Positions 4,697 through 39,037 of a stretch of DNA of 64,000 nucleotides are shown one piece after another (position 1 is the stretch's first letter; the number at the start of each line of letters is the position of its first letter). The notes under the pieces are model-generated. The model did not search any database and had not been told where the DNA came from. It saw only the letters and a list, made by a program, of their open reading frames with translations. A program made the position numbers and the translations under genes. Source of the stretch: Desulfuromonadaceae bacterium (lineage in GTDB: Bacteria > Desulfobacterota > Desulfuromonadia > Geobacterales > Pseudopelobacteraceae); assembly GCA_028712075.1 (NCBI GenBank), contig JAQTQX010000003.1, positions 62,001 to 126,000 on the forward strand. The letters run 5' to 3'.

Positions 4697-5959
4697 ATGT
4701 CTGCCGAGACCATCTACGCTGCATCCTGGTTGATTAATCCCGATGCCCCACCGCTCGCCGGCGGGGCATTGCTCGTTCGAGACGGTGCCATCATCGCAAC
4801 CGGACCGCTCCATCAACTGCGCAGTTCTTATGCAGCACCGATATGCGAATTTCCCGGCACCGTTCTGCTCCCCGGATTTATCAACGCTCACACCCACCTT
4901 GAGCTGACCCACTTTCCGTCATGGCTGAACCGCTCAAAGGTCGACTACCAACCACACCGTTTTACCGACTGGATCATTCAGCTTATCAAAATCACCCGAG
5001 GCCTGGCAGATGAAGAGCTTTACCGCTCTATCCATGAAGGGGTGAGAATGTGCCTGGAATCGGGAACAACGGCAATCGGCGAAATTGTGACCAACCCGGC
5101 AATGGCTGAACAGTACTATCATTCTCCACTCGCCGGACGGCTGTATTTTGAACTGATCGGGCAGGAGTCCGGTCATTTTCAGAGCAAACTTACTGCCGCC
5201 ATGACTGCCATAGCAAAACGAGACGAAACTGAAAAGCTATTCGCAGGACTCTCCCCGCACTCACCCTATACAATTGCCTTCGAACATCTGCCTGCCATAC
5301 GGGAAGTCGCCATTTCACGCGCCCTGCCGCTTGCCATCCATCTTTCCGAATCACGATCAGAGGCCGATATAATCTTTGACGGCACCGGAGATCTGGCTAC
5401 CAATTTCTACCCCTTTGTCGGGTGGGAGCGTTTTGTCGGTCACTCTGCCCGCTGCAGTTCAACAGAACTGCTTGACCGCTACGGCCTGCTGACGCCGACC
5501 ACAATTGCGGTTCATTGCGTTCACACCTCCGTTGCCGATGCACACATTTTAAAAACACGCGGCGTACATATCGCACTCTGCCCCCGCAGTAACAAGCTGC
5601 TTGATGTCGGGCACGCTCCGGTGAATCTGTTCAAAAAGCTAGGCATTCCCCTGACGCTTGGCACCGATTCTCTTGCCAGCAACAATTCCCTGTCACTCTG
5701 GGATGAACTCCGCTTTGCTTTGGAATGTTTCCCGAATGATCTTTCAGAACAGGACCTTTTCAATATGGTTACGATCGGCGGTGCCGAAGCTCTCGGTATT
5801 TCCGCATCCTGCGGTTCATTGACCGTTGGTAAACGGGCGGATTTCCAGGTTGTGAACATCAATAATTGGACCGAAAACGAAGTTTTGGAACGGGTTATAA
5901 GAGAGGGGAGCGTGCAGGAAGTTTTTGTCGGCGGAGTACGCTACTCGGGCGGGAGTTGA
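4697..5959 (+). CDS. Amidohydrolase family deaminase (SsnA / aminodeoxyfutalosine deaminase-like)
   Basis: A 420-residue metal-dependent hydrolase of the cytosine deaminase/TRZ-ATZ branch. Visible metal and catalytic motifs, in order: NAHTHLEL (residues about 62-69), HLSES near 215, HCVH near 275 and LGTDSLASN near 320. The first beta-sandwich and the C-terminal return strand (VGKRADFQVVNI) are present. Possible substrates include 6-amino-6-deoxyfutalosine in the futalosine menaquinone pathway, but close relatives deaminate guanine, adenosine derivatives or triazines, so the substrate is not settled. It lies 49 bases after lon on the same strand and may be cotranscribed. Confidence 0.75.
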   Translation: MSAETIYAASWLINPDAPPLAGGALLVRDGAIIATGPLHQLRSSYAAPICEFPGTVLLPGFINAHTHLELTHFPSWLNRSKVDYQPHRFTDWIIQLIKITRGLADEELYRSIHEGVRMCLESGTTAIGEIVTNPAMAEQYYHSPLAGRLYFELIGQESGHFQSKLTAAMTAIAKRDETEKLFAGLSPHSPYTIAFEHLPAIREVAISRALPLAIHLSESRSEADIIFDGTGDLATNFYPFVGWERFVGHSARCSSTELLDRYGLLTPTTIAVHCVHTSVADAHILKTRGVHIALCPRSNKLLDVGHAPVNLFKKLGIPLTLGTDSLASNNSLSLWDELRFALECFPNDLSEQDLFNMVTIGGAEALGISASCGSLTVGKRADFQVVNINNWTENEVLERVIREGSVQEVFVGGVRYSGGS

Positions 5960-25083: not shown

Positions 25084-25596
25084 ATGTTGCGAACGGTAAT
25101 TGTAGATGTAGAAACGACCGGGCTGTCAGCCTCTCGGGGAGGACGGGTGATTGAACTCGGGGCCGTTTCGGTTGTGGGTGGATTGATTACTGATGAGATG
25201 AATAGCCTGATTTATACCGGTGCGTCGATACATTACGGCGCATACCGGGTACATGGCATTTCCGAAGCAATGCTGTCCGGCCAGCCGTCAGCGGATGAAG
25301 TCTGGAGCCGCTTCCATGTCTTTGCGGGAGATGCGCCGCTGGTTGCGCACAACGCGCCATTCGACCGCTCGTTTGTCAGGCATGAGCTGGGATTGATTCG
25401 CCTCGAACTGCCGAACACCTGGCACTGTACCGTTCGCCTGGCCCGTCAAAAACTGCCGCATCTGCCCAATCACAAGCTGGACACCGTCTATCGGTATCTG
25501 TTCGGCACATTACCTGCTTCGGTGCAGCGGCACCGCGCGCTTGATGACGCACGGCTGGCAGCGCGGATCTGGATAAAGTTGCGGGAGAATTATTAG
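25084..25596 (+). CDS. DEDDh 3'-5' exonuclease, DnaQ/PolC epsilon-like
   Basis: A 170-residue protein equal to a stand-alone exonuclease domain. ExoI motif VDVETTGL supplies Asp and Glu, ExoII is VAHNAPFDRSF, and ExoIII is HRALDDARLAARI with the DEDDh histidine. Members proofread or trim DNA or RNA; without other domains the exact role cannot be set. GGAGAAA lies 11 bases before the ATG. It lies directly before the CRISPR region, but shares no operon with it, since the cas genes have their own promoter. Confidence 0.85.
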   Translation: MLRTVIVDVETTGLSASRGGRVIELGAVSVVGGLITDEMNSLIYTGASIHYGAYRVHGISEAMLSGQPSADEVWSRFHVFAGDAPLVAHNAPFDRSFVRHELGLIRLELPNTWHCTVRLARQKLPHLPNHKLDTVYRYLFGTLPASVQRHRALDDARLAARIWIKLRENY

Positions 25597-25685
25597 AAAT
25601 ATTTGTCGCGGGTTGGATGTGTAGTGGCGCTGCTTGATGTGACGGTGTTGGGGTGAATGTTCAGTCTGAATTTGCTTTTGGTTTT

Positions 25686-25723
25686 ATCCTCCCCCTTTGA
25701 GAAAGGGGGATTGAGGGGGATTT
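25686..25723. repeat. Dispersed palindromic repeat
   Basis: CCCCCTTTGAGAAAGGGGG (perfect 8-bp arms, 25691-25709) followed by ATTGAGGGGGATTT. The same element occurs after cas6e and on both sides of the DUF559 gene. Confidence 0.7.
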
Positions 25724-25761
25724 GCCTTTGATCTGGAGATATTGGGGGTAGGCGGAGAGGG

Positions 25762-25791
25762 AAAAGAGCCGGACAATTGCTTGCCCGGCTC
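25762..25791 (-). terminator. Intrinsic terminator of the mini-CRISPR RNA
   Basis: On the minus strand GAGCCGGGCAA pairs with TTGTCCGGCTC across a GCAA tetraloop (11 pairs, one G-U), followed by TTTT. The first arm uses the last bases of repeat R2, whose A-to-G change (ATGAGCCG) helps form the stem. Confidence 0.85.
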
Positions 25792-25864
25792 ATCCCCGCG
25801 TTTGCGGGGAACGCAATTTCGTGCTGTTTTTTGCACGGTTCATCCCTTTTTTCAAAGGGAACAT
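25762..25864 (-). ncRNA. Mini-CRISPR RNA gene (CreR/CreA-like) upstream of the cas operon
   Basis: Read on the minus strand: degenerate I-E repeat R1 (25864-25836), a 21-nt spacer (25835-25815), degenerate repeat R2 (25814-25786), and an overlapping terminator. R1 differs from the array repeat mainly in its stem, where CCCCGC/GCGGGG has become CCCTTT/AAAGGG, keeping a 6-4-6 hairpin by three compensatory pairs; the 3' handle ATGAACCG is intact. R2 matches 24 of 29 positions and keeps the original stem. The spacer matches a site next to the cas promoter with an AAG PAM. Expected product: a short crRNA (8-nt handle, 21-nt guide, 3' hairpin) loaded into Cascade. Sequence facts are direct; the regulatory role is inference from described CreR and CreTA systems. 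Confidence 0.82.
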
Positions 25865-25868
25865 TTAG

Positions 25869-25897
25869 ATCATAATTGGATTACGATTTTTTAGCAA
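25869..25897 (-). promoter_or_regulatory. Promoter of the mini-CRISPR RNA
   Basis: Minus strand -35 TTGCTA (25897-25892), 17-bp spacer, -10 TATGAT (25874-25869). Predicted start near 25862-25864, which is the first base of repeat R1. Confidence 0.75.
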
Positions 25898-25906
25898 GCA
25901 TACCAT

Positions 25907-25932
25907 GCAATTTCCTGCTGTTTTTTACACTT
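25907..25932 (-). promoter_or_regulatory. Predicted Cascade target site of the mini-CRISPR RNA
   Basis: On the minus strand, PAM AAG (25932-25930) is followed by a 23-base protospacer (25929-25907) that matches the guide plus two bases of R2 at 21 of 23 positions. Mismatches are at guide positions 3 and 15. The PAM overlaps the -35 box of the cas promoter. Confidence 0.78.
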
Positions 25933-25959
25933 GACTTTTTATTGTGGTGCCACTACCCT
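25931..25959 (+). promoter_or_regulatory. Promoter of the cas operon
   Basis: TTGACT (25931-25936), 17-bp spacer, TACCCT (25954-25959). The -10 is weak. A small inverted repeat GTGG-TG-CCAC lies in the spacer. The transcript would start about 20 bases before the small ORF at 25985. Confidence 0.55.
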
Positions 25960-25984
25960 TTTGCTTAACAGGAGGGAAGCGACT

Positions 25985-26125
25985 ATGAAAAATGTTGTTT
26001 GTTGGGTTGGTAATCTTATTCAGGTGGTCAACAGCGTAAGCCCTATGGGGCTTGCAGCCCTCACGATGGTGGTGCTGTTGGTTGTCGTGTTGTTGGCTGG
26101 TTATATCGTTGTACATGCCATGTAG
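25985..26125 (+). CDS. 46-aa single-span membrane peptide, first gene of the cas operon
   Basis: The peptide starts MKNVVCWVGNLIQVVNS; residues about 20-43 form one very hydrophobic segment rich in Val and Leu, and the end is HAM. The ATG has GGAGGG eight bases upstream, the best ribosome site in the region, and lies 18 bases before cas3. A longer frame from 25931 begins inside the promoter and is not credible. I recognise no family. Size and hydrophobicity resemble type I membrane toxins, and its promoter is the predicted target of the mini-CRISPR RNA, so a CreT-like toxin is one possibility; a membrane helper or sensor of Cas function is another. Confidence 0.65.
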   Translation: MKNVVCWVGNLIQVVNSVSPMGLAALTMVVLLVVVLLAGYIVVHAM

Positions 26126-26143
26126 GCGAGAAAGGTAGTTAAA

Positions 26144-28726
26144 ATGACCAGCACACTTTTTGACTTCTGGGGTAAGGCGGAACGAAGCGGGCCGGGATGG
26201 CATCCTGCGGTATGTCATATGCTTGATGTCGGCATCGTGGTTCGTGAGATTCTTTCCTTGCAACCCCTTGCTTTTCGCCAGAGATTAACCTCGCTTTTTG
26301 ACCCGGACGAGGCGAAGGCGCTGAACGTGTTGGCGTTTGTAGCTGCGCTCCACGATATTGGTAAAATCAGCCCCGGCTTTCAGTTGAAGCGCGAAGACCT
26401 TTGCGCTCACCTGAAAGAGCGGGGCTTTACATTTCCATCGACATCAGAATCAAAACATGGCCGGATTGTGCTTGATGCATTGACCGGGATTCTTGAAGAG
26501 AAATATTGTTGCGGTCGATATGATGCGGATGCTCTGGCGCGTATTCTTGCGGCTCACCATGGTGTCTTTGAAGAATGCCGGGATGTGGAGGCGGGTGACC
26601 GTATTTGGCAGGAAGCAAGGGAAGAAGCGGTTGCCTTTCTTGCCCGGATTTTCGGGGTTACTTCCCTTGCGTCACTGCGGTTGGAAAGTGTCCCGGAACT
26701 TTTTCTGCTTGCCGGGCTGATTTCGGTTGCCGACTGGATCGCTTCTGACGAGGAAACTTTTGGCTATCTGAATTCAGCGCCAGCGGACATTGAAACATAT
26801 ATTCTGGAACGCACCGGCATAGCACGTACGCTGCTTGAGCGTCTTTCAATGGGAACAACGGTGGATGCTGAAAAGCCGTTCTCCGAACTTTTCGATTTTG
26901 GCACTCCAAATTCCTGCCAACAGGCAACACTCGACGTACTCTCCCGCCTAACCCACCCAATGTTGATAGTTGTAGAAACACCCATGGGAAGCGGCAAGAC
27001 AGAGGCGGCTCAAGCCGCTTATGCCCGTCTTGCGGTACGGGACGGGCTGCGTGGGATGTATTGCGCCTTGCCAACCCAGGCGACCGGAAACGCCATGTTC
27101 GACCGGATGCGGAGATTTCTGGCGCGGCTTCACGACGAGAAGGCGGTGGAACTACACCTGCTTCATGCCAATGCCGGAATGCATCCGGAATACGATAAAC
27201 TCAAGATCAAATCCGGCGTTGAAACCAGTGACACCGTTATTGCCTCGTCCTGGTTTACCCAGAAGAAACGCGGGTTGCTGGCTGCCTACGGCACCGGCAC
27301 CATCGATCAGGCGTTGTTGTCCATACTGCGGGTACGCCACTTTTTTGTCCGTCTTTTCGGCCTGGGCGGCAAGATGATTATTCTTGACGAGGTTCACGCC
27401 TATGACGCCTACATGTCCGAAGAAATCTATAACTTGATCGGCTGGGCCTCCCGCTGCGGTTCGTCGATAGTCCTGCTTTCCGCAACTCTTCCGGCAAATA
27501 AGCGAAAGAAACTGGTCACCGCATTCCGGCCAGATGTTCATCTGCCGGATGGGCTTACGTATCCCTGTGTGTTTGGCGTGGATCTTCAGGGTCCGCCGGT
27601 ATATGAGCCGGTTGTGATGACGCCAAGCACTCTTGAAATATCGCCGGTGCTGGCGGAAAAATCGGAGAAGGTGCGTAAGATGGCCGATATGGTCATGGAT
27701 ATTGTAGCTAATGATGGCTGCCTTGCTTGCATTGTGAACACTGTCACCGAGGCGCAAGAATTGTACGATCTTCTGAAAGACCGGCTTCCCGAGGACGAGT
27801 TGATCCTGTTTCATTCCCGCTTCACCATTGAACGTCGTCTCGAAATCGAACAGGCAATTGTCAGTAAATACGGTAAGGACGGCAAACGCCCGCAGCGCGG
27901 GGTTGTGGTGGCAAGCCCGGTGTTGCAGGAAAGTCTGGATGTCTGCTTCGATGCCATGTTGTCAGAGCTTGCCCCTTTTGACCTGCTGCTGCAACGGGCT
28001 GGACGTTTGCATCGCCATAAGAACGAACGCCCGCCGCATCTCCAAGCGCGGCGACTTTATGTGTTTCTGCCCGACCTTAACACCGTTAAACCGGATTTCG
28101 GCTGGAGCGGTCTGATCTATTTCCCAGACCTTCTCTATCGGAGCGGAACGTTGTTCATGAAAGACGGCAAGTATTATTCACTGCCGGTTGAAATCCCCAA
28201 CGGAGTTTCTGCGTTGATAGAGGCGGTGTATGACGGCGAAGACTTGAAAGGGGTTGATGACGAGCGGGAAAAATGGCTGGAGAAACGGACGGAAGAACGT
28301 GACGGGGCTGAGTATGCGAGTAAGTTTCATGCTCGAACGGCAGCCATTATGAGTGTTCACGAAAAAGGTAATGACCCGGATTATCTGGGAGGTCTACAGA
28401 ATGGCAGCGACGATGAGACAATGCCTTCAACTCGTATTGGACGGCAACGGATCACTCTAATTATTCTGGAACAGGGCGAAGATATTTCCATCCCGAACAG
28501 GGCGGCTGAACGGCGGCTATACATGCAGAGCATATCTACTGATAATGTTCGATTGGTGAAGCATTTTGCAGATATTTCCGGGCCGGTCGAATGGAGCGAA
28601 TCGCCGCTGCTCCGCTATTGTCACCCGGTTTTCTTTGCTGGCGGAATCGCCAGTGAAGGAGAATTTATGTTGGCGTATGACAGGATCAGAGGTCTTTCCA
28701 TGTTACGAAAAGGAGGAAATGAATGA
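26144..28726 (+). CDS. cas3: CRISPR-associated helicase-nuclease Cas3 (type I-E)
   Basis: An 860-residue protein recruited by Cascade to nick and shred target DNA. The N-terminal HD nuclease domain shows WHPAVCHMLDV, then His70-Asp71 in ALHDIGK, and later a His-His pair (ILAAHHG). The SF2 helicase follows: Walker A PMGSGKTEAA near residue 285, DEVHAYD near 415, SATLP near 445, and motif VI LLQRAGRLHRH near 620. All catalytic motifs look intact. Its stop overlaps the cas8e start (ATGA). It is preceded by the small membrane peptide gene. Confidence 0.95.
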   Translation: MTSTLFDFWGKAERSGPGWHPAVCHMLDVGIVVREILSLQPLAFRQRLTSLFDPDEAKALNVLAFVAALHDIGKISPGFQLKREDLCAHLKERGFTFPSTSESKHGRIVLDALTGILEEKYCCGRYDADALARILAAHHGVFEECRDVEAGDRIWQEAREEAVAFLARIFGVTSLASLRLESVPELFLLAGLISVADWIASDEETFGYLNSAPADIETYILERTGIARTLLERLSMGTTVDAEKPFSELFDFGTPNSCQQATLDVLSRLTHPMLIVVETPMGSGKTEAAQAAYARLAVRDGLRGMYCALPTQATGNAMFDRMRRFLARLHDEKAVELHLLHANAGMHPEYDKLKIKSGVETSDTVIASSWFTQKKRGLLAAYGTGTIDQALLSILRVRHFFVRLFGLGGKMIILDEVHAYDAYMSEEIYNLIGWASRCGSSIVLLSATLPANKRKKLVTAFRPDVHLPDGLTYPCVFGVDLQGPPVYEPVVMTPSTLEISPVLAEKSEKVRKMADMVMDIVANDGCLACIVNTVTEAQELYDLLKDRLPEDELILFHSRFTIERRLEIEQAIVSKYGKDGKRPQRGVVVASPVLQESLDVCFDAMLSELAPFDLLLQRAGRLHRHKNERPPHLQARRLYVFLPDLNTVKPDFGWSGLIYFPDLLYRSGTLFMKDGKYYSLPVEIPNGVSALIEAVYDGEDLKGVDDEREKWLEKRTEERDGAEYASKFHARTAAIMSVHEKGNDPDYLGGLQNGSDDETMPSTRIGRQRITLIILEQGEDISIPNRAAERRLYMQSISTDNVRLVKHFADISGPVEWSESPLLRYCHPVFFAGGIASEGEFMLAYDRIRGLSMLRKGGNE

Positions 28727-30270
28727 GCAGTTTTTCTTACAATCTGATTGATGAACCATGGATTAACTGTACCAGTCGTGACGGAACCCGAAGCATGGGA
28801 CTGCGCGAACTTTTGTTGTCAGCCCACGAACTGCGCGGGATTGAATCAGCCAACCCGCTTTTTGTGGCGGCACTGTTGAGGGTGCTGCTTGCCTTGGTTC
28901 ATCGCATTGCAGATGGCCCGCGCAGCGCACGGGACTGGGGTAGCCTCTATTCAGCCGGGCGCTTTCCCGAGGAGCAGGTCAATGCATATTTTCAGCGTGT
29001 TCAAGACCGATTCGATTTATTCTCTGAGGCGTATCCGTTTTATCAGACGGCTGGTCTTTCAATTCTCGATGCGAACGGGAATGAAGCGCCGGTTTCAGCA
29101 ACGGTAATCATGCATGAACGGGCCAGCGGCAACAACAAGACCATCTTTGACCATACCACCGACGATACGCCATCCGCATTGACACCGGCTCAGGCTGCTC
29201 ACGCCTTGCTAACGACCCAGATGTTCGCGCTTGGGGGACTCAACAAGAAGAGTACCAACCATTTTGGCTTTCAGCAAAGTTACCTGAATGCGGCTATGGT
29301 CAGCGGCATATTCATTGCCCTTACGGGGGCATCCCTGTTTGAAACGCTCATGCTCAATCTGCTTCTGCCCGAGTCGCACATGATGGGAAGTGACCCCGTT
29401 GACAAACCGGTCTGGGAGCGGGACGAGATTGGCACTGATAAAGCGAGGACGCCTTCCGGTTATCTTGGTTTTCTCACCTGCAAATGCCGTCATGTCAGGC
29501 TGTTGCCCGAACAGAACGGTAACGCGGTAACGGTTTCGAAGCTTCATATTGCACAGGGGGAAGCGTTTCCGGATGTTGCCAACCCATCATTCATGCGTAA
29601 AAAAAATAACAAGACAGGCGAGTGGTACTGTCCGCAACTTAACCCTGATCGGCTTGTCTGGCGGGACAGTGTATCGCTTTTCGCCTTTGAGCAAGGCATT
29701 GATGAACGGCCTGCGGCGTTCCGCCAAGCAGTAGCCATGCATCGGGACGTCCCTTTTACGTCACGCTATCTTTGTACTGCAATCGCCTTGGCTAATGACA
29801 AGGCGAATCCTCTCGCCTGGCGGGCTGAATCGCTTCCAGTGCCGCTTGCATTGCTGGAGCAAAAAGAAACGGTTAACATTCTCATTTCCGGCATGGAACG
29901 GGCAGAAAATGTTGTGCGCATTCTGGACGGCGCCGTGAAGACATTCATGCGGCACGCATTGCCACCAAACTCCAAGGATATAAATGAAAAGGCCGCAGCA
30001 ACCGGGGCTCTGCGGTTTTTCTGGGATCGCCTTGAAGGTCATTTCAATGCGTTTCTTTCAAATATTGCTTCGGATGAAACGGCTCTTACGGAGTGGCACG
30101 ACAAGATTGCCAATGTTGCACATGATTCCCTCAAGTCCTGTGTCCGGCAGCGTTACGCCGATTCAGCCGCTACTCTCAAAGGGTGGGCGGCAGCCGTTGA
30201 TGAACTGAACAGAAAACTTGCAGCATTTAACTCCAAACAAGGAGGTGGAAACAGTGAAGGAAAACTATGA
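28723..30270 (+). CDS. cas8e: Cascade large subunit Cas8e (Cse1/CasA)
   Basis: A 515-residue subunit that reads the PAM and positions Cas3. The N-terminus YNLIDEPWINCTSRDGT is the family hallmark; GLNKKSTNHFGFQQSYLNAA and the C-terminal helical bundle region follow. Length fits the family (about 500 residues). AAAGGAGG precedes the ATG, and the start overlaps the cas3 stop. The 3' end overlaps the start of cse2 by 17 bases, so the Cascade genes are tightly coupled. Confidence 0.94.
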   Translation: MSSFSYNLIDEPWINCTSRDGTRSMGLRELLLSAHELRGIESANPLFVAALLRVLLALVHRIADGPRSARDWGSLYSAGRFPEEQVNAYFQRVQDRFDLFSEAYPFYQTAGLSILDANGNEAPVSATVIMHERASGNNKTIFDHTTDDTPSALTPAQAAHALLTTQMFALGGLNKKSTNHFGFQQSYLNAAMVSGIFIALTGASLFETLMLNLLLPESHMMGSDPVDKPVWERDEIGTDKARTPSGYLGFLTCKCRHVRLLPEQNGNAVTVSKLHIAQGEAFPDVANPSFMRKKNNKTGEWYCPQLNPDRLVWRDSVSLFAFEQGIDERPAAFRQAVAMHRDVPFTSRYLCTAIALANDKANPLAWRAESLPVPLALLEQKETVNILISGMERAENVVRILDGAVKTFMRHALPPNSKDINEKAAATGALRFFWDRLEGHFNAFLSNIASDETALTEWHDKIANVAHDSLKSCVRQRYADSAATLKGWAAAVDELNRKLAAFNSKQGGGNSEGKL

Positions 30271-30784
30271 AAGTCCATTCGTAAAATCACTGGAAAAACT
30301 GTACCACGATAGGGATCGCGCGGCTCTGGCAAAGCTTCGCAGAGGTCTTGGCAAGAAAGAAGGAACGCCGGAGATGTGCCGGTATGTGGCACGTTTTCTT
30401 CCCGACGATGCCAAACAGTACGTTATCGAGCGCTATTTTTTGATTGCGTCACTTTTTGCGCTCCATCCGGAACCGGCGGCTCGCGGTGTTAGTTTGGGCA
30501 AGGTATTCAGGGCTATGGTGGAGAAAAGCCCTAGCGTTGAGAAGCGTTTTGAACATCTGCTTTCGGTAGATGCTGAGGATCTTGGCGGCCATCTCCGTCA
30601 AGCCGTCTCGCTGGCAAAGAGCAAAGGTGTACATGTGGATTTTCACCAACTGTTCGATGATTTGGGTAAATGGAATTATAGCGACCGTCGTGTGCAGCTC
30701 CGCTGGGCGCGCGACTTCTGGGGTTATGAAAAGGAATTAACTGAAAACAACAACGAAACCGAATCGAAAGGAGACGTACAATGA
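30254..30784 (+). CDS. cse2: Cascade small subunit Cse2 (CasB/Cas11e)
   Basis: A 176-residue helical subunit that holds the displaced strand in the R-loop. Family features: LAKLRRGLGK near the N-terminus, ending with the FWGYE motif after VQLRWARDF. I place the start at GTG 30254, eight bases after GGAGG, inside the cas8e end; an upstream in-frame start at 30218 has no site. The stop overlaps the cas7e ATG. Confidence 0.92.
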   Translation: MKENYESPFVKSLEKLYHDRDRAALAKLRRGLGKKEGTPEMCRYVARFLPDDAKQYVIERYFLIASLFALHPEPAARGVSLGKVFRAMVEKSPSVEKRFEHLLSVDAEDLGGHLRQAVSLAKSKGVHVDFHQLFDDLGKWNYSDRRVQLRWARDFWGYEKELTENNNETESKGDVQ

Positions 30785-31932
30785 TTGTCGAACTGCACAT
30801 TATTCAGAATTTTGCCCCCTCCAACCTCAACCGGGATGACTCCAACACACCCAAAGATTGCGAATTTGGCGGCTACCGCCGTGCCCGGATTTCCAGCCAA
30901 TGCATCAAGCGTTCGGTGCGCCGTCATTCAGCCTTTGCCGATACGGTAAAATCAGGTGGCGGCGAGGTTGGCATAAGGACGAAGCGGCTCAAGATGCGGC
31001 TGGTGGAACTGCTTGTCGAGAAACATGGCAAACTCGCTGAAGAATCGGAAAAGGCTGCGGTTGCCATTATCGACCTGCTGGGCTTCAAGCTGGGCGAAGC
31101 GGAAAAAACCGAATACCTGCTTTATCTGGGTGAAGGAGAAGTGAAAGAGTTGGCCGATATAGCGCTGTCAGCCTGGGATGGGCTTGTTACTCTTGAAATC
31201 GGTAAAGAAAAGAAAAAGAAAGATGCTCCGCCTGAAGCGCTCAAGCAGGCGCAGGATGCTTTGAAATCGGTGGTCGCCAAGTCCCGCAAAGATGCACGGT
31301 GCTATGCCGCCGATATTGCCCTGTTTGGCCGCATGGTGGCGGATAACAAAAACATGAATGTCGATGCCGCCTGTCAGGTGGCGCATGCGCTTTCCACTCA
31401 CAAGGTGGAAATGGAGATGGATTATTTCACCGCTATTGACGACCTCCAGCCGGGTGAAGACTCCGGTTCCGACATGATCGGCGTGGTTGAGTTCGACAGC
31501 TCCTGCTTTTACCGCTACTCAGCCATTGACCTGAACAAGTTGAATGAAAACCTGGGTTTTAACAGCGATTTGTTGGCGGCCACTGTTAAAGGTTACATCG
31601 ACGCCTCGGTCAAGGCGGTTCCCACCGGCAAACAGAACAGCATGGCTGCCCAGAACCCTCCCGGCTATGTGCGGGTGGTGGTACGTAAAGACGGTTTTCC
31701 GTGGTCCTTGGCAAATGCTTTCCAGAAACCGGTGCTTGCCAAGGGAGAACAGTCGCTGGAAGAGCGTTCGATTACCGAACTGAAGAAGTATATGGATCAA
31801 TTGAAGAAAGTTTACGGTGACGAATCAATCGTCTGCGACGCTTCGTTCAATCTCTACGATGAGAACACAGCCGGGTTGACCGGTCTGTTGGCAACGGTTG
31901 AATCCTCACTTGCCAAGGGGGCGACAGCATGA
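30781..31932 (+). CDS. cas7e: Cascade backbone subunit Cas7e (Cse4/CasC)
   Basis: A 383-residue RNA-binding subunit that polymerises along the crRNA guide, about one copy per six bases. The N-terminus reads VELHIIQNFAPSNLNRDD, and GGYRRARISSQCIKRSVRR is the characteristic conserved stretch. FSTHKVEMEMDYFTAIDD-like sequence (here LSTHKVEMEMDYFTAIDD) is present. AAAGGAG precedes the ATG, which overlaps the cse2 stop. The stop overlaps the cas5e start. Confidence 0.95.
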   Translation: MIVELHIIQNFAPSNLNRDDSNTPKDCEFGGYRRARISSQCIKRSVRRHSAFADTVKSGGGEVGIRTKRLKMRLVELLVEKHGKLAEESEKAAVAIIDLLGFKLGEAEKTEYLLYLGEGEVKELADIALSAWDGLVTLEIGKEKKKKDAPPEALKQAQDALKSVVAKSRKDARCYAADIALFGRMVADNKNMNVDAACQVAHALSTHKVEMEMDYFTAIDDLQPGEDSGSDMIGVVEFDSSCFYRYSAIDLNKLNENLGFNSDLLAATVKGYIDASVKAVPTGKQNSMAAQNPPGYVRVVVRKDGFPWSLANAFQKPVLAKGEQSLEERSITELKKYMDQLKKVYGDESIVCDASFNLYDENTAGLTGLLATVESSLAKGATA

Positions 31933-33245: not shown

Positions 33246-33452
33246 CAAATCCCCCCTGCCCCCCCTTTCGTAAAGGGGGGGGTAAATTTAAAGGCTTCTT
33301 TTTACTGAGGTTTTGTGTGGATGGTTCCAAAAGTGCCCCATTAGTAAAAGGGGGGTAAATTTAAAGACTTTTTTATTACTGAGGTTTTGTGTGGACGGTT
33401 CTAAAGTCCGCCTTTATGAATTTTGGGTCTTTTGAGGATGCTTCTAAAAGTC
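33246..33452. repeat. Palindromic repeat plus tandem 73-bp repeats after cas6e
   Basis: Begins with a C/G palindrome (33246-33282). Then a unit starting GGGTAAATTTAAAG and containing ACTGAGGTTTTGTGTGGA is present at about 33280 and again 73 bases later, with a decayed third copy from about 33410. No gene is credible here. Confidence 0.75.
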
Positions 33453-33485
33453 CCCCTTTACGAAAGGGGGATTTAGGGGGATTTG
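33451..33485 (+). repeat. Left inverted-repeat copy flanking the DUF559 gene
   Basis: TCCCCCTTTACGAAAGGGGG followed by ATTTAGGGGGATTT. It is the inverse of the copy at 33863-33897. Confidence 0.75.
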
Positions 33486-33508
33486 GGTTTGAATTGTATA
33501 GGTGCAGC

Positions 33509-33889
33509 ATGCGTGAATATCGCCATAACCTGAGAACTCCATCCCGTGAGCTTCGCGGAGCTATGACTGATGCCGAACAATTGCTTTGGTCTCGTCTGCG
33601 TAGAAAGCAACTGCACGGAGTGCAATTTTACCGTCAGAAACCGATTGGGCCGTACATTGTCGATTTTTTTGCACCCGGTGCAGGTTTGGTTATTGAGCTT
33701 GACGGCGGTCAGCATCTTAAACCGGAGCATTCAGAAAAAGACCGGCAACGAGATCAATGTCTGGCGGATATGGATTTGCTGGTGTTGCGCTTCAATAACC
33801 GGGAGGCGCTACTGGAAACGGATGTTGTCGTGGAGCGGATTGCGGAAGAAGTGCAGCGTAGGAAATCCCCCCCTGCCCCCCTTTCGTAA
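33509..33889 (+). CDS. DUF559 endonuclease-like protein (Vsr/PD-(D/E)XK fold)
   Basis: About 126 residues. The pattern follows PF04480: MTDAEQLLWSRLRRKQLHG, then QKPIGPYIVDFFAP, then LVIELDGGQHLKPE, giving the Asp and Glu-x-Asp of the nuclease core. I start it at ATG 33509; the upstream frame only translates repeats. The last eight residues (KSPPAPLS) are encoded by the repeat that follows, so the original stop was replaced by one inside the repeat. It lies between cas6e and cas1, and is bracketed by inverted repeats, which suggests it arrived as a unit. No evidence shows a role in CRISPR immunity. Confidence 0.78.
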   Translation: MREYRHNLRTPSRELRGAMTDAEQLLWSRLRRKQLHGVQFYRQKPIGPYIVDFFAPGAGLVIELDGGQHLKPEHSEKDRQRDQCLADMDLLVLRFNNREALLETDVVVERIAEEVQRRKSPPAPLS

Positions 33890-33897
33890 AGGGGGGT
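33863..33897 (-). repeat. Right inverted-repeat copy flanking the DUF559 gene
   Basis: AAATCCCCCCCTGCCCCCC followed by TTTCGTAAAGGGGGG, the reverse complement form of the 33451-33485 element. It supplies the DUF559 stop codon. Confidence 0.75.
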
Positions 33898-34229: not shown

Positions 34230-35284
34230 GTGCCAGCAACCACTGACTACGATGCAATGCTTCTCGGCGTTGTCGATCTACTGGAACAGGCTCGCAGCAC
34301 GTCAGCTCGTGCGGTCAACACCATTATGACTGCCACCTATTGGGAGGTCGGGCGGCGGATTGTGGAGTTTGAGCAGGGAGGAGAAGCCAGGGCGGAATAT
34401 GGTTCCGTGTTGCTTAAAAAACTTTCAAAAGATCTTCTCCCGATATTTGGACGTGGTTTCGGCTGGCGCAACATCTACCAGATGCGTCTGTTCTATCAAG
34501 CGTATCCCGAGATTTTGCAGACAGCGTCTGCAAAATCTGGTGGCGGCAGTGCTACTCGTTTTCCTCTTCCCTGGTCGTGTTATGTTCGACCCATTGCGGT
34601 GGATAATCCTGATGTACGTACGTTTTACGAAGCAGAGGCCCTGCGTGGAGGTTGGAAGGTGCGCCAGCTCGACCGCCAGATTTCCACGCTTTTCTACGAG
34701 TGCACCGCCCTTTCCCGCAACAAGGCAGCTATGCTGAAAAACGGACAAAAAGCGTTGCCGGAGGACGTAGTAACACCAGAAGAGGAGATTCGCGATCCGC
34801 TGGTGTTGGAGTTTCTGGGATTAAAGGATGAGTATTCGGAAAAAGACCTGGAAGAGGCTTTGATCCTGCATCTGGAAAGTTTTTTACTGGAACTTGGTGG
34901 CGATTTCACCTTTGTTGGCCGACAGCGCCGCTTGCGGATCGGTGATTCATGGTATCGGGTTGATCTGCTTTTCTTCCACCGCCGTCTGCGCTGCCTGGTG
35001 GTGATCGACCTGAAGCTGGGCAAGTTTACTCATGCTGATGCCGGACAGATGCATATGTATCTGAACTATGCCAGTGAACATTGGACAAACCCGGAAGAAA
35101 ACCCTCCGGTGGGGCTGATTATCTGCGCTCAGAAGGATCACGCCCTGGCTCATTACACCCTGGAAAATCTGCCAAATAAAGTGCTGGCAGCAGAATATAA
35201 GCTGGCTTTACCTGACGAAAAGGCTTTGGTGGCGGAGATCGACAAAACCCGCGCAATTCTGGAAAAACAACGAAAGGCCAAACC

Positions 35285-35288
<4 letters not shown>
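34230..35288 (+). CDS. DUF1016 (YhcG-type) PD-(D/E)XK nuclease-domain protein
   Basis: At least 352 residues. The N-terminal DUF1016_N domain is clear (ARAVNTIMTATYWEVGRRIV, then YGSVLLKKLSKDLLPIFGRGF). The C-terminal nuclease domain shows GDSWYRVDLLFFHRRLRCLV followed by VIDLKLGKF, giving the D and D-x-K of the core. The GTG at 34230 has no ribosome site; a much better start is ATG 34196 after GGGAGGT, but it runs out of frame through an A8 tract at 34219-34226. Removing one A would join the two frames. The stop overlaps the cas1 ATG (ATGA). Known relatives occur in defence islands and restriction loci. Confidence 0.8.
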
Positions 35289-36500
<1,212 letters not shown>

Positions 36501-36568: not shown

Positions 36569-39037
36569 ATGTTCCCCGCACGCGCGGGGATGAACCGATA
36601 ATAAATATCCCTGTGGAACTTGGATATGTATGTTCCCCGCACGCGCGGGGATGAACCGTAGGCCAAATTTTCTTTAGTGCCGATTTACCCATGTTCCCCG
36701 CACGCGCGGGGATGAACCGCTGAAAATACATCTGAAACGGGCGGAGACGGAATGTTCCCCGCACGCGCGGGGATGAACCGAAGGTGTGCACCGTACTTCA
36801 TGCTGATCGTATATGTTCCCCGCACGCGCGGGGATGAACCGGCAGAGAAGCAGACGCGGTTGATGTCAATGTCATGTTCCCCGCACGCGCGGGGATGAAC
36901 CAACGGGCTGTTTCCTGAGGAAAGAAGATAACGGATGTTCCCCGCACGCGCGGGGATGAACCGCCTGTTCCAAACCTCTAAATACAAACGTAGTAATGTT
37001 CCCCGCACGCGCGGGGATGAACCTAAGGACTTCGGGCAGTTCAGCGGTGGCAACAAATGTTCCCCGCACGCGCGGGGATGAACCGAGGCTGCCGACAAAA
37101 TAACCGCCGCGCTGCAGATGTTCCCCGCACGCGCGGGGATGAACCGTATATCCTTTCCGCTGACGTGGATGCCACCGCATGTTCCCCGCACGCGCGGGGA
37201 TGAACCGGCGATAATCTCCGGCCTCATCCCATATCCGGAATGTTCCCCGCACGCGCGGGGATGAACCGGTATTAGGCTTAGGTCAACCAGGCATAAAACA
37301 ATGTTCCCCGCACGCGCGGGGATGAACCGCTGGAGCACCGTTCATACAAACTTCTTTCGCAATGTTCCCCGCACGCGCGGGGATGAACCGCTGGAGCACC
37401 GTTCATACAAACTTCTTTCGCAATGTTCCCCGCACGCGCGGGGATGAACCGTACAAACTACGAAATGAAAGGAAATTGCAATGATGTTCCCCGCACGCGC
37501 GGGGATGAACCGGGTAACGGTACATACAGCATGACTAACATTAAATGTTCCCCGCACGCGCGGGGATGAACCGCTCTGGGTATTGCAGTCAGACGAGTGA
37601 GCAGTATGTTCCCCGCACGCGCGGGGATGAACCGAAACTGCTCGAGGCTGACCCCGGTTATCTGGCATGTTCCCCGCACGCGCGGGGATGAACCGGTGAC
37701 AAACGCTTTTCAGCCTTTTACGCCAGAATGTTCCCCGCACGCGCGGGGATGAACCATCACGTCATGGGCCGTGATGAATATATAAGCCATGTTCCCCGCA
37801 CGCGCGGGGATGAACCTTGAGCTCTACAACAAAGCGCGGACCCGTGCGCATGTTCCCCGCACGCGCGGGGATGAACCGAGTAAACTCAGGGTTCATCTGG
37901 TCTTTAAAACATGTTCCCCGCACGCGCGGGGATGAACCGTTAGATCTTCCGTGACGCGTCACATCAAGGCAATGTTCCCCGCACGCGCGGGGATGAACCG
38001 GCGCAGACGGATGTCACTCCGTTCCGCCGCTGATGTTCCCCGCACGCGCGGGGATGAACCGGTAAGCCGACGCCCGCGCAGGCGGGTTTTCATATGTTCC
38101 CCGCACGCGCGGGGATGAACCGCAACTTAGCGATGCTCAACAGCAGGTTGCCACATGTTCCCCGCACGCGCGGGGATGAACCGCGGTAGGGAACAGACCA
38201 CTATGGTCAATCTCCATGTTCCCCGCACGCGCGGGGATGAACCGCCCTGCTCGAACGCCTCGTTACTGGCGTTGGCATGTTCCCCGCACGCGCGGGGATG
38301 AACCGAAGGGCAAAGTAGTTCCCGGCTCTGCTACCCCATGTTCCCCGCACGCGCGGGGATGAACCGGCATACCGGCATTCACGGAACTGTTTTTCTCGAT
38401 GTTCCCCGCACGCGCGGGGATGAACCGGTGACATACGAAAATTCATGATCAATCGCCCAATGTTCCCCGCACGCGCGGGGATGAACCGTGTCATGCCCTC
38501 CTGAATCTCGGTGTCCGGCAATGTTCCCCGCACGCGCGGGGATGAACCGAAGTCAATGGCCCCGTGGCCTATTACGAATACATGTTCCCCGCACGCGCGG
38601 GGATGAACCGTTTCCACATGGATTTAGGTGCTTTCCACCATAATGTTCCCCGCACGCGCGGGGATGAACCGCTGATGAGCTTACCGGTATTATCGCTGGT
38701 GGTATGTTCCCCGCACGCGCGGGGATGAACCGTTTGCATAATTCTTCAGACAAAGATTTAATTGATGTTCCCCGCACGCGCGGGGATGAACCGGAATTAC
38801 CACCATGATGAAACCACAAGAAATAATGTTCCCCGCACGCGCGGGGATGAACCGTCTGGCGCCCGTAACTACATCAGCATCAGCACATGTTCCCCGCACG
38901 CGCGGGGATGAACCGCCGCCAACCTCAAAGGCTAACGGCTTTTATCAATGTTCCCCGCACGCGCGGGGATGAACCGCCACAGTTTGCAGGCGCAGGCGGC
39001 TATCCGGTATGTTCCCCGCACGCGCGGGGATGAACCG
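36569..39037 (+). CRISPR. Type I-E CRISPR array, 41 repeats and 40 spacers
   Basis: A 29-base repeat, beginning ATGTTCCCCGCACGCG and ending GGGGATGAACCG, recurs every 61 bases without exception; spacers are all 32 bases. The stem is CCCCGC/GCGGGG with an ACGC loop. Base 29 is G in 37 repeats, A in repeats 6 and 20, and T in repeats 8 and 21. Otherwise repeats appear identical, including the last one. Spacers 13 (37330-37361) and 14 (37391-37422) are identical. Uniformity and the full cas set suggest an active array. Long reading frames across it are artefacts. Confidence 0.98.

Follow-up and report, generated by a model that had tools for sequence, protein, structure and literature searches.

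A two-repeat mini-CRISPR predicted to guide Cascade to the promoter of its own type I-E cas operon, and its linkage to a small hydrophobic ORF

Introduction

Why would a type I-E CRISPR-Cas locus keep, in addition to its 41-repeat array, a stand-alone mini-CRISPR of two repeats, and could the guide encoded there be aimed at the promoter of the cas genes themselves? The question is raised by a 64,000-nucleotide stretch of DNA from a Desulfuromonadaceae bacterium (hereafter the window), which belongs to a genome of 4.15 Mb in 53 contigs (G000). The plus strand of the window carries a type I-E locus in the order cas3-cse1-cse2-cas7-cas5-cas6e, nuclease genes, cas1e, cas2e, and CRISPR array. To the left of cas3, and divergent to the cas operon, a stand-alone two-repeat mini-CRISPR occupies positions 25766-25864 of the minus strand.

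A cas-regulating RNA, CreR, was reportedly described by Liu et al. in Cell Host Microbe in 2023. Excerpts of the papers cited here and below portray CreRs as crRNA-like RNAs that derive from ectopic mini-CRISPRs and partly match their own cas promoter (PMC12737573, PMC13131331, PMC12948488), and as known from types I-B, I-E, and V-A (PMC13131331). Because CreRs have already been reported for type I-E, the kind of system considered here is a known one.

Results

Anatomy of the mini-CRISPR and its cas locus

The features of the window to which we refer are listed by position and strand.

25766-25791, minus: stem of the mini-CRISPR's intrinsic terminator (T run at 25765-25762; GAGCCG shared with R2)
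25786-25814, minus: repeat R2, a near-canonical hairpin (24/29 bases match the array repeat)
25794-25843, minus: predicted mature RNA of 50 nt, as expected from the two repeats (8-nt handle, 21-nt guide, and 21-nt 3' hairpin after Cas6e cleavage)
25815-25835, minus: spacer (guide), 21 nt
25836-25864, minus: repeat R1, degenerate (stem CCCTTT/AAAGGG; handle ATGAACCG retained)
25869-25897, minus: putative promoter of the mini-CRISPR, TTGCTA-17-TATGAT (-35 at 25897-25892, -10 at 25874-25869; 9/12 consensus bases)
25909-25929, minus: target (protospacer) of the guide, between two divergent putative promoters (25929-25907 for the 23-base match)
25930-25932, minus: PAM AAG (AAG in 5/5 loci with such a unit)
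25931-25959, plus: putative promoter of the small-ORF-cas operon, TTGACT-17-TACCCT (8/12 consensus bases)
25985-26125, plus: 46-aa hydrophobic ORF with one strongly hydrophobic stretch (mean 2.95) and Shine-Dalgarno AGGAGG
26144-28726, plus: cas3 (below the curated cut-off of NF007248, above the cut-offs of cas3_core and cas3_HD)
28723-30270, plus: cse1 (cas8e), TIGR02547
30218-30784, plus: cse2 (cas11), listed ORF; the real start is probably more internal
30781-31932, plus: cas7e, TIGR01869
31929-32660, plus: cas5e, TIGR01868
32542-33243, plus: cas6e, TIGR01907, listed ORF; the real start is probably more internal
33389-33889, downstream of cas6e: DUF559 (vsr-like nuclease) ORF
34230-35288, between cas6e and cas1: YhcG/DUF1016 nuclease (PADLOC PDC-S02 and a Cas-associated PD-DExK profile)
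35285-36208, plus: cas1e, TIGR03638
36189-36500, plus: cas2e, PF09707
36569-39037, plus: CRISPR array, 41 repeat matches with a 61-nt period

A sequence-only reading of the window had described a minus-strand unit with a promoter, two I-E repeats, a 21-nt spacer, and a terminator, and all of these elements were found in the sequence. The array repeat, ATGTTCCCCGCACGCGCGGGGATGAACCG, is 29 nt long, which with the period of 61 leaves array spacers of 32 nt; at 37299-37420, two adjacent array spacers are identical. R1 agrees with the array repeat at 19/29 positions and with R2 at 18/29. The 10 differences between R1 and the array repeat comprise six bases in three stem pairs and four in the loop. 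Each of these three pairs is altered on both sides and all are still Watson-Crick (CCCCGC/GCGGGG to CCCTTT/AAAGGG), which is the pattern that a Cas6e-bound hairpin under selection would show. R2 overlaps the terminator, and the single base at which its 3' handle departs from the array, G in place of A, is part of the terminator stem.

The ends of the predicted 50-nt mature RNA were placed by the cleavage position of type I-E Cas6e. The predicted fold of the mini-CRISPR RNA lies 7 SD below that of shuffled sequences, and the hairpins and 8-nt handle of the window are retained, as in the CreR trait of an ectopic mini-array that keeps its Cas6 features. No Rfam model matched positions 25500-26200 up to an E value of 0.1.

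The guide matches a PAM-flanked site upstream of the cas genes

The window guide, TGCAAAAAACAGCAC, matches its target at 19/21 positions within the spacer proper and at 21/23 when two bases of R2 are included, with mismatches at positions 3 and 15. An earlier claim of a 21/23 match to a nearby AAG-flanked site is thus borne out, with the distance between guide and target measured at 94 bases. The claimed overlap of the PAM with a -35 box was likewise found: AAG (25932-25930) and the plus-strand TTGACT (25931-25936) have two bases in common. The guide (25815-25837, minus) also folds on itself through CGUGC/GCACG. Because positions 3 and 15 both lie within this stem, the two mismatches make the guide hairpin stronger and the target match weaker.

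When the region 25865-26130 was dinucleotide-shuffled 1000 times, the best guide match had three mismatches once and at least five otherwise, and two mismatches were never reached. The second-best site in the 64-kb window has six mismatches. A genome-wide check for other guide matches, which the sequence-only reading had called for, gave a divided answer: the PAM plus 23-base target occurs only once within three mismatches in the 4.15-Mb genome, but AAG followed by target bases 1-11 is also present at two other places, both away from the cas locus, L139 (C17:115659) and L140 (C29:116816). The pattern AAGTGYAANAAACA was found with at most one mismatch at 16 places in the same genome versus 14 for the reversed control, so guide-like sites are not enriched in the genome; two of the 16, besides the target, match the pattern without mismatch. 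Given the two extra AAG plus 11-base places, weaker side targets of the window guide are possible, and since these sites match about as well as some of the true targets in relatives, specificity is not proven.

Guides and targets covary in four relatives

A lack of covariation between guide and promoter site in relatives had been named beforehand as grounds for refutation. Four other genomes of the order carry such a unit (G018, G129, G087, and G093), and in each the guide differs, is unrelated to the others, and fits an AAG-flanked site of its own genome that lies on the same strand and precedes the likely cas-side promoter. In these lines, mismatches refer to guide positions 1-14, the -35 offset is counted in bases from the start of the PAM complement, and the unit -35 gives the target position where the guide unit's best -35 starts.

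Window: guide as above; spacer 21 nt; mismatch at 3; cas-side promoter 8 of 12; -35 offset 1; unit -35 at 33; ORF of 46 residues before cas3
G018: guide AGAAAAATGGCGTTG; spacer 32 nt; mismatch at 12; cas-side promoter 8 of 12; -35 offset 1; unit -35 at 23 or 24; ORF of 39 residues before cas3
G129: guide TGTTCCAGGTTTTTG; spacer 32 nt; mismatch at 6; cas-side promoter 8 of 12; -35 offset 4; unit -35 at 16; ORF of 38 residues before cas3
G087: guide TATCCCAGGTTATTT; spacer 34 nt; mismatches at 6, 12, and 14; cas-side promoter 9 of 12; -35 offset 14; unit -35 at 16; ORF of 40 residues before cas3
G093: guide TAGGTAAGTTTATTA; spacer about 32 nt; mismatch at 12; cas-side promoter 11 of 12; -35 offset 1; unit -35 at 28; ORF of 41 residues before cse1

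All five loci have the same layout, with the unit on the strand opposite to the cas genes and the target between the unit and the cas-side promoter, on the guide strand, 51-67 bases from R1. R1 is degenerate and contains TTCCCT in every locus, and the R2 stem is kept and followed by a terminator-like hairpin; the R2 handle is lost in G093. The R1 hairpin is part of the minimum-energy fold in the window, G018, G129, and G093 and is absent from that fold in G087. In G087 and G129 (loci L137 and L136), the R1 handles (ATGACCCG and ATGGACCG, respectively) differ from the array handle ATGAACCG of each genome, so the repeats of the units drift in the handle too. AAG was recovered in all five loci from target rankings that ignored the PAM.

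The match of the relatives' guides stops after about 11-15 bases; in G018, for instance, 14/15 of positions 1-15 match the target. Positions 6 and 12 account for 5/7 of the mismatches at positions 1-14, which corresponds to 5/10 cells versus 2/60 at the other positions (p 0.0004; five loci), with the caveat that the scan which led to G129 and G087 disregarded positions 6 and 12; G018 and G093 were not found in this way. An I-E crRNA is described, in an excerpt, as leaving every sixth base unpaired (PMC13122317). The interpretation that the guide is aimed at its own cas promoter gains support from the sequences of these four covarying relatives.

Distribution of the unit

Cas1e is present in 31/141 genomes of the order. 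Our survey comprised 32 I-E loci: those of 28 order genomes with a locatable cas3, of another two genomes from the class, and of two named outsiders. Four of the 32 carry a unit (window, G018, G129, and G087), and our scans detected none in the other 28. Among those 28 are G131 and G125, in which Cse1 and Cas7 share 88-92% identity with the G018 proteins. Left out of this count were G010, G038, and a second contig of G033, all of which have no cas3 on the stretch, and G101, where cas1 stands at the contig edge; G033 was counted once, from its other contig. The fifth unit locus, G093, has no cas1 on its stretch and therefore falls outside the survey; it was found via the small ORF described below. 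Considering these omissions and the recovery of G093 from outside the survey, the five unit loci represent a lower bound.

A scan of 428 kb of cas loci outside arrays, permitting any PAM, returned the four units known before G093 and one hit with PAM CGA in G046, 3.5 kb upstream of cas3, which we take for chance; the same scan returned zero units from 1.29 Mb of simulated sequence. A laxer scan that required AAG (handle with at most three mismatches, 10/13 bases) also returned some weak matches, in a few loci and about as often as in simulated regions, where 100 of 640 reached 10 matches, 10 reached 11, and none reached 12. No unit was seen upstream of cas3 in the same-genus I-E loci located through the window Cse1 (G007, G011, G017, G021, and G033). 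The nearest named Cse1 relatives that we saw, a Methylococcaceae MAG (L001; Cse1 36%) for which only about 500 bases upstream of cas3 are present and a Pseudoalteromonas replicon (L014; Cse1 32%), yielded no unit either.

Three sequence patterns were also searched. A short-spacer pattern (GGGATRAWCCG, 14-29 bases, GTTCCC) occurs at 11 places in 10 of the 141 genomes of the order and at 33 places in 29 of 395 genomes of the phylum. Inspection covered these loci minus three phylum places and L040, and the window locus alone has both a pair of hairpin repeats and a near match beside AAG; in L059 (G621) a pair of hairpins is present without such a match. This pattern is blind to 32-nt spacers and so missed the four relatives. 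The pattern TTCCCT..AGGGATG..CCG..TTCCCC was found in G000 only among the 395 phylum genomes, a sample in which the order is thinly represented and the four relatives are absent, and a pattern for the terminator plus R2 was found in G000 and G018 among 277 genomes of the class. Among viral contigs, one pattern hit was taken as chance; the 6.9 kb examined held no cas gene.

Promoter-like elements share their placement

The cas promoter claimed by the sequence-only reading stood in part: the TTGACT -35 box is present, but the paired -10, TACCCT, makes only 8/12 consensus bases, a background-level score. Because 8/12 was reached by 129 of 500 simulated stretches, the cas-side promoter of the window is plausible but weak. 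On the other side of the target, a promoter-like element that scores 7 to 10 of 12 ends 6-11 bases before R1 in 5/5 loci. Taken one at a time, the cas-side scores say little, and therefore the argument is carried by the shared placement of the cas-side elements.

In three of the five loci, CTT together with GACT, TACT, or GACA forms one string, such that the PAM and the best cas-side -35 overlap by two bases. The -35 of G087 begins 14 bases past the start of the PAM complement, which makes occlusion less direct there. The -35 boxes of the guide units fall within, or at the edge of, a full R-loop. The CreR trait of a PAM-flanked partial match to the own cas promoter is found here together with covariation in four relatives, the promoters being predicted.

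Proposed mechanism

Building on the features shown at the level of sequence (the unit, guide-target match, PAM, compensated R1 stem, matching guides of the relatives, and ORF linkage), we consider it highly likely that a minus-strand mini-CRISPR RNA loads Cascade and represses the small-ORF-cas promoter without cutting. The RNA would be transcribed from TTGCTA-17-TATGAT and cut by Cas6e to about 50 nt, and Cascade with this guide RNA would sit on 25909-25932 and cover the -35 box. As Cascade rises, the small hydrophobic ORF and cas3-cse1-cse2-cas7-cas5-cas6e would then be transcribed less. The promoter would be freed again whenever Cascade is taken up by crRNAs of the 41-repeat array or blocked by an anti-CRISPR. 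Because the target lies between both -35 boxes, the Cascade complex may also damp its own guide RNA.

In the window, the short spacer of 21 nt and the mismatches at positions 3 and 15 would together probably prevent cutting; in the relatives, the early end of the match would probably do so. Excerpts report that I-B spacers of 26 nt or less cause repression without cutting (PMC10551041) and that I-E spacers shortened by 6 or 12 bp slow Cas3 degradation but do not abolish it (PMC7296934). Because shortened I-E spacers still allow slow degradation, truncation alone need not protect the chromosome, and the mismatches of the window probably matter. Further points that count against the proposal are the window mismatch at position 3, which falls inside the seed, the background-level score of the cas-side promoter, the less direct occlusion and the R1 fold of G087, the two other genomic places that resemble the target, and the 28 of 32 surveyed loci in which no unit was detected.

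A small hydrophobic ORF is first behind the putative target promoter

The 46-codon ORF stands 18 bases before cas3 and is the first ORF behind the putative cas-side promoter. For the earlier claim that the guide RNA controls cas3-cas6e, the target is indeed at the putative cas promoter, but the first ORF there is this small one rather than cas3. A hydrophobic ORF occupies the same place in the four relatives, cas genes start no more than 31 bases after it in all five loci, and it was found in 0/28 surveyed loci without a detected unit. Because the small ORF separates the likely promoter from the cas genes in 5/5 loci, the circuit may govern more than Cas dosage.

An unrelated 86-aa hydrophobic ORF lies directly before cas3 in G125 (L124, cas-oriented 5547-5807), which has no unit, and a stretch before the unit of G129 (5210-5365) resembles the end of an ORF similar to this one. 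With G125 counted, a hydrophobic ORF precedes cas3 in 4/4 loci with a unit versus 1/28 without (p 0.00014, shared ancestry uncorrected). The units of the window, G129, and G087 were seen independently of the ORF, and those of G018 and G093 were found through it, so the link between unit and ORF holds both ways.

Across 141 genomes of the order, a profile of the ORF gave strong hits in its four source genomes only, and weak hits (E 0.01-0.04) in six more, among which G093 proved to be a unit locus; the unit pattern was absent from 2-3 kb around the other five. As a single query against a protein database, the 46-aa ORF matched only itself, and the four-sequence profile retrieved 16 proteins, which are 38-46 aa long and lack a Pfam domain; the window protein and sequences containing those of G018 and G129 are among the 16. 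The 46-aa ORF has no Pfam match, and thus no KilA-N domain of the CreP type. Hydrophobic residues are conserved across relatives, which suggests that the 38-46-codon ORF encodes a working protein, likely a membrane protein. The C-terminus is basic in 4/5 of the small ORFs. Type I toxins are short, with a hydrophobic stretch and a basic C-terminus.

These observations bear on a different reading, in which the small hydrophobic ORF is the main target, a membrane toxin held down by Cascade plus guide in CreTA- or CrePA-like addiction or as an anti-anti-CRISPR, and the cas genes are passengers. It is consistent with the strict association of ORF and unit among surveyed loci, with a profile that is strong only in its source genomes and whose weak hit in G093 is a unit locus, with the resemblance to type I toxins, and with the joint occurrence of unit and ORF at a different gene junction in G093. 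A pure toxin module would not need cas genes within 31 bases behind the ORF, yet this spacing is seen in 5/5 loci, and we hold the reading to be possible but doubtful. It is compatible with autorepression of Cas dosage, and both may hold.

The guide unit and Cascade genes appear to be exchanged as a block

Homology of the window to the unit-less loci L036 and L013 ends at 25762, which is the T run of the terminator. Compared with G018, the terminator plus R2 (25766-25812) is identical at 46/47 positions and the preceding flank and R1 at 83%, versus 48-49% for the spacer, promoter region, and ORF. Cas1 is 93-96% identical within the genus (one broken copy 91-96%), and Cse1 27-35%. These breaks in identity suggest that a single block comprising the guide, its target promoter, the small ORF, and the Cascade genes was exchanged, and that the flank and cas1 are native. 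The unit and small ORF of G093 are placed between cas3 and cse1 and oriented toward cse1, and thus the unit tracks the Cascade genes.

Repeated CCCCCTTT..AAAGGGGG elements at 25690-25724, 33246-33282, 33451-33492, and 33863-33896 flank the effector cassette; they recur in related cas loci and are possible exchange points. The segment 25734-25762 is a remnant resembling the cas3-start region of L013 and L036, perhaps left after replacement of the effector genes.

Both functions might be combined, and we put this forward tentatively: one Cascade-guided RNA and one promoter would form a two-in-one guard that sets Cas dosage and restrains a membrane toxin encoded by the first gene, the guide-toxin module passing as a whole from one Cascade lineage or gene junction to another and refitting its guide to the local promoter. 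If so, a phage protein or mutation that disables Cascade would raise Cas supply and free the toxin.

Readings that do not involve regulation by Cascade

Repression of the small-ORF-cas promoter by Cascade and its guide was also weighed against readings in which the match has no such role. The unit could be a self-targeting relic, in which an old spacer against the cas promoter persists in a decaying, functionless mini-array. A single acquisition event could yield the match, and R1 and R2 have indeed diverged from the array repeat. However, the five loci combine unrelated guides with the same strand, order, and spacing, promoter-like elements and terminators are kept, the R1 stem of the window is compensated, and a seed match would not survive decay; we judge a relic to be very improbable. 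A duplication of a promoter segment at the DNA level (direct repeat 25813-25836 / 25907-25930), unrelated to Cascade, would fit the length and direct orientation of the window match, but it can be set aside almost entirely, as the match in relatives begins at the first spacer base beside the handle, has AAG on the other copy, ends early, and has its mismatches clustered at 6 and 12. Equally hard to credit is an antisense RNA acting on cas mRNA, for which predicted divergent transcription beside the operon from a promoter-like element would speak, since the predicted cas transcript would not include the target, which precedes the putative -35 box, and repeats and handle would be superfluous.

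Discussion

The five loci resemble CreR in having an ectopic mini-CRISPR whose guide partly matches its own, predicted cas-side promoter. CreR is generally uncoupled from a toxin gene, according to an excerpt (PMC12737573), whereas here a small hydrophobic ORF is first behind the target promoter in 5/5 loci. Set beside CreR, there is also the two-base overlap of PAM and likely -35 in 3/5 loci and, for the window, a near-complete match by a spacer of 21 nt. From its sequence, the unit would work like CreR, and the coupled ORF sets these loci apart.

In CreTA, as outlined in excerpts, a creA RNA antitoxin is paired with a creT RNA toxin, CreT toxins acting as RNAs that tie up rare tRNAs, and the module lies upstream of the cas operon in H. 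hubeiense (PMC8501985, PMC9458426). The likeness to CreTA is that two divergent, degenerate repeats flank a spacer with a partial match to a PAM-flanked promoter close by; unlike CreTA, the site here fronts a 38-46-codon ORF with conserved hydrophobic residues and then cas genes. CrePA has a protein toxin, CreP, with a KilA-N domain, and Cascade plus a crRNA-like RNA represses this protein-coding gene (PMC12737573, excerpt). Repression of a protein-coding gene by Cascade and a crRNA-like RNA is likewise predicted here, but the protein is short, hydrophobic, without Pfam domain, and encoded directly before the cas genes. Among the listed papers on CreR, cas-regulating RNAs, and CreTA, no title or abstract opening describes a small membrane protein in such an operon.

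The guide in Cas9 autorepression is tracr-L, a class 2, long-form tracrRNA without a mini-array. As with tracr-L, a natural guide is predicted here to direct the effector to its own promoter; unlike it, the system of the window has Cascade and a mini-array. Autorepression of Cas9 by a natural guide is noted in an excerpt (PMC13131331).

Five natural type I-E loci with covarying guide and upstream site make RNA-guided autorepression testable by guide swaps. The bases shared by PAM and likely -35 in three of these loci would make it hard for the promoter to escape through mutation. Finally, the pairing with a domain-less family of small hydrophobic proteins would join control of Cas dosage, as in CreR, and addiction, as in CreTA and CrePA, which are kept apart in reviews.
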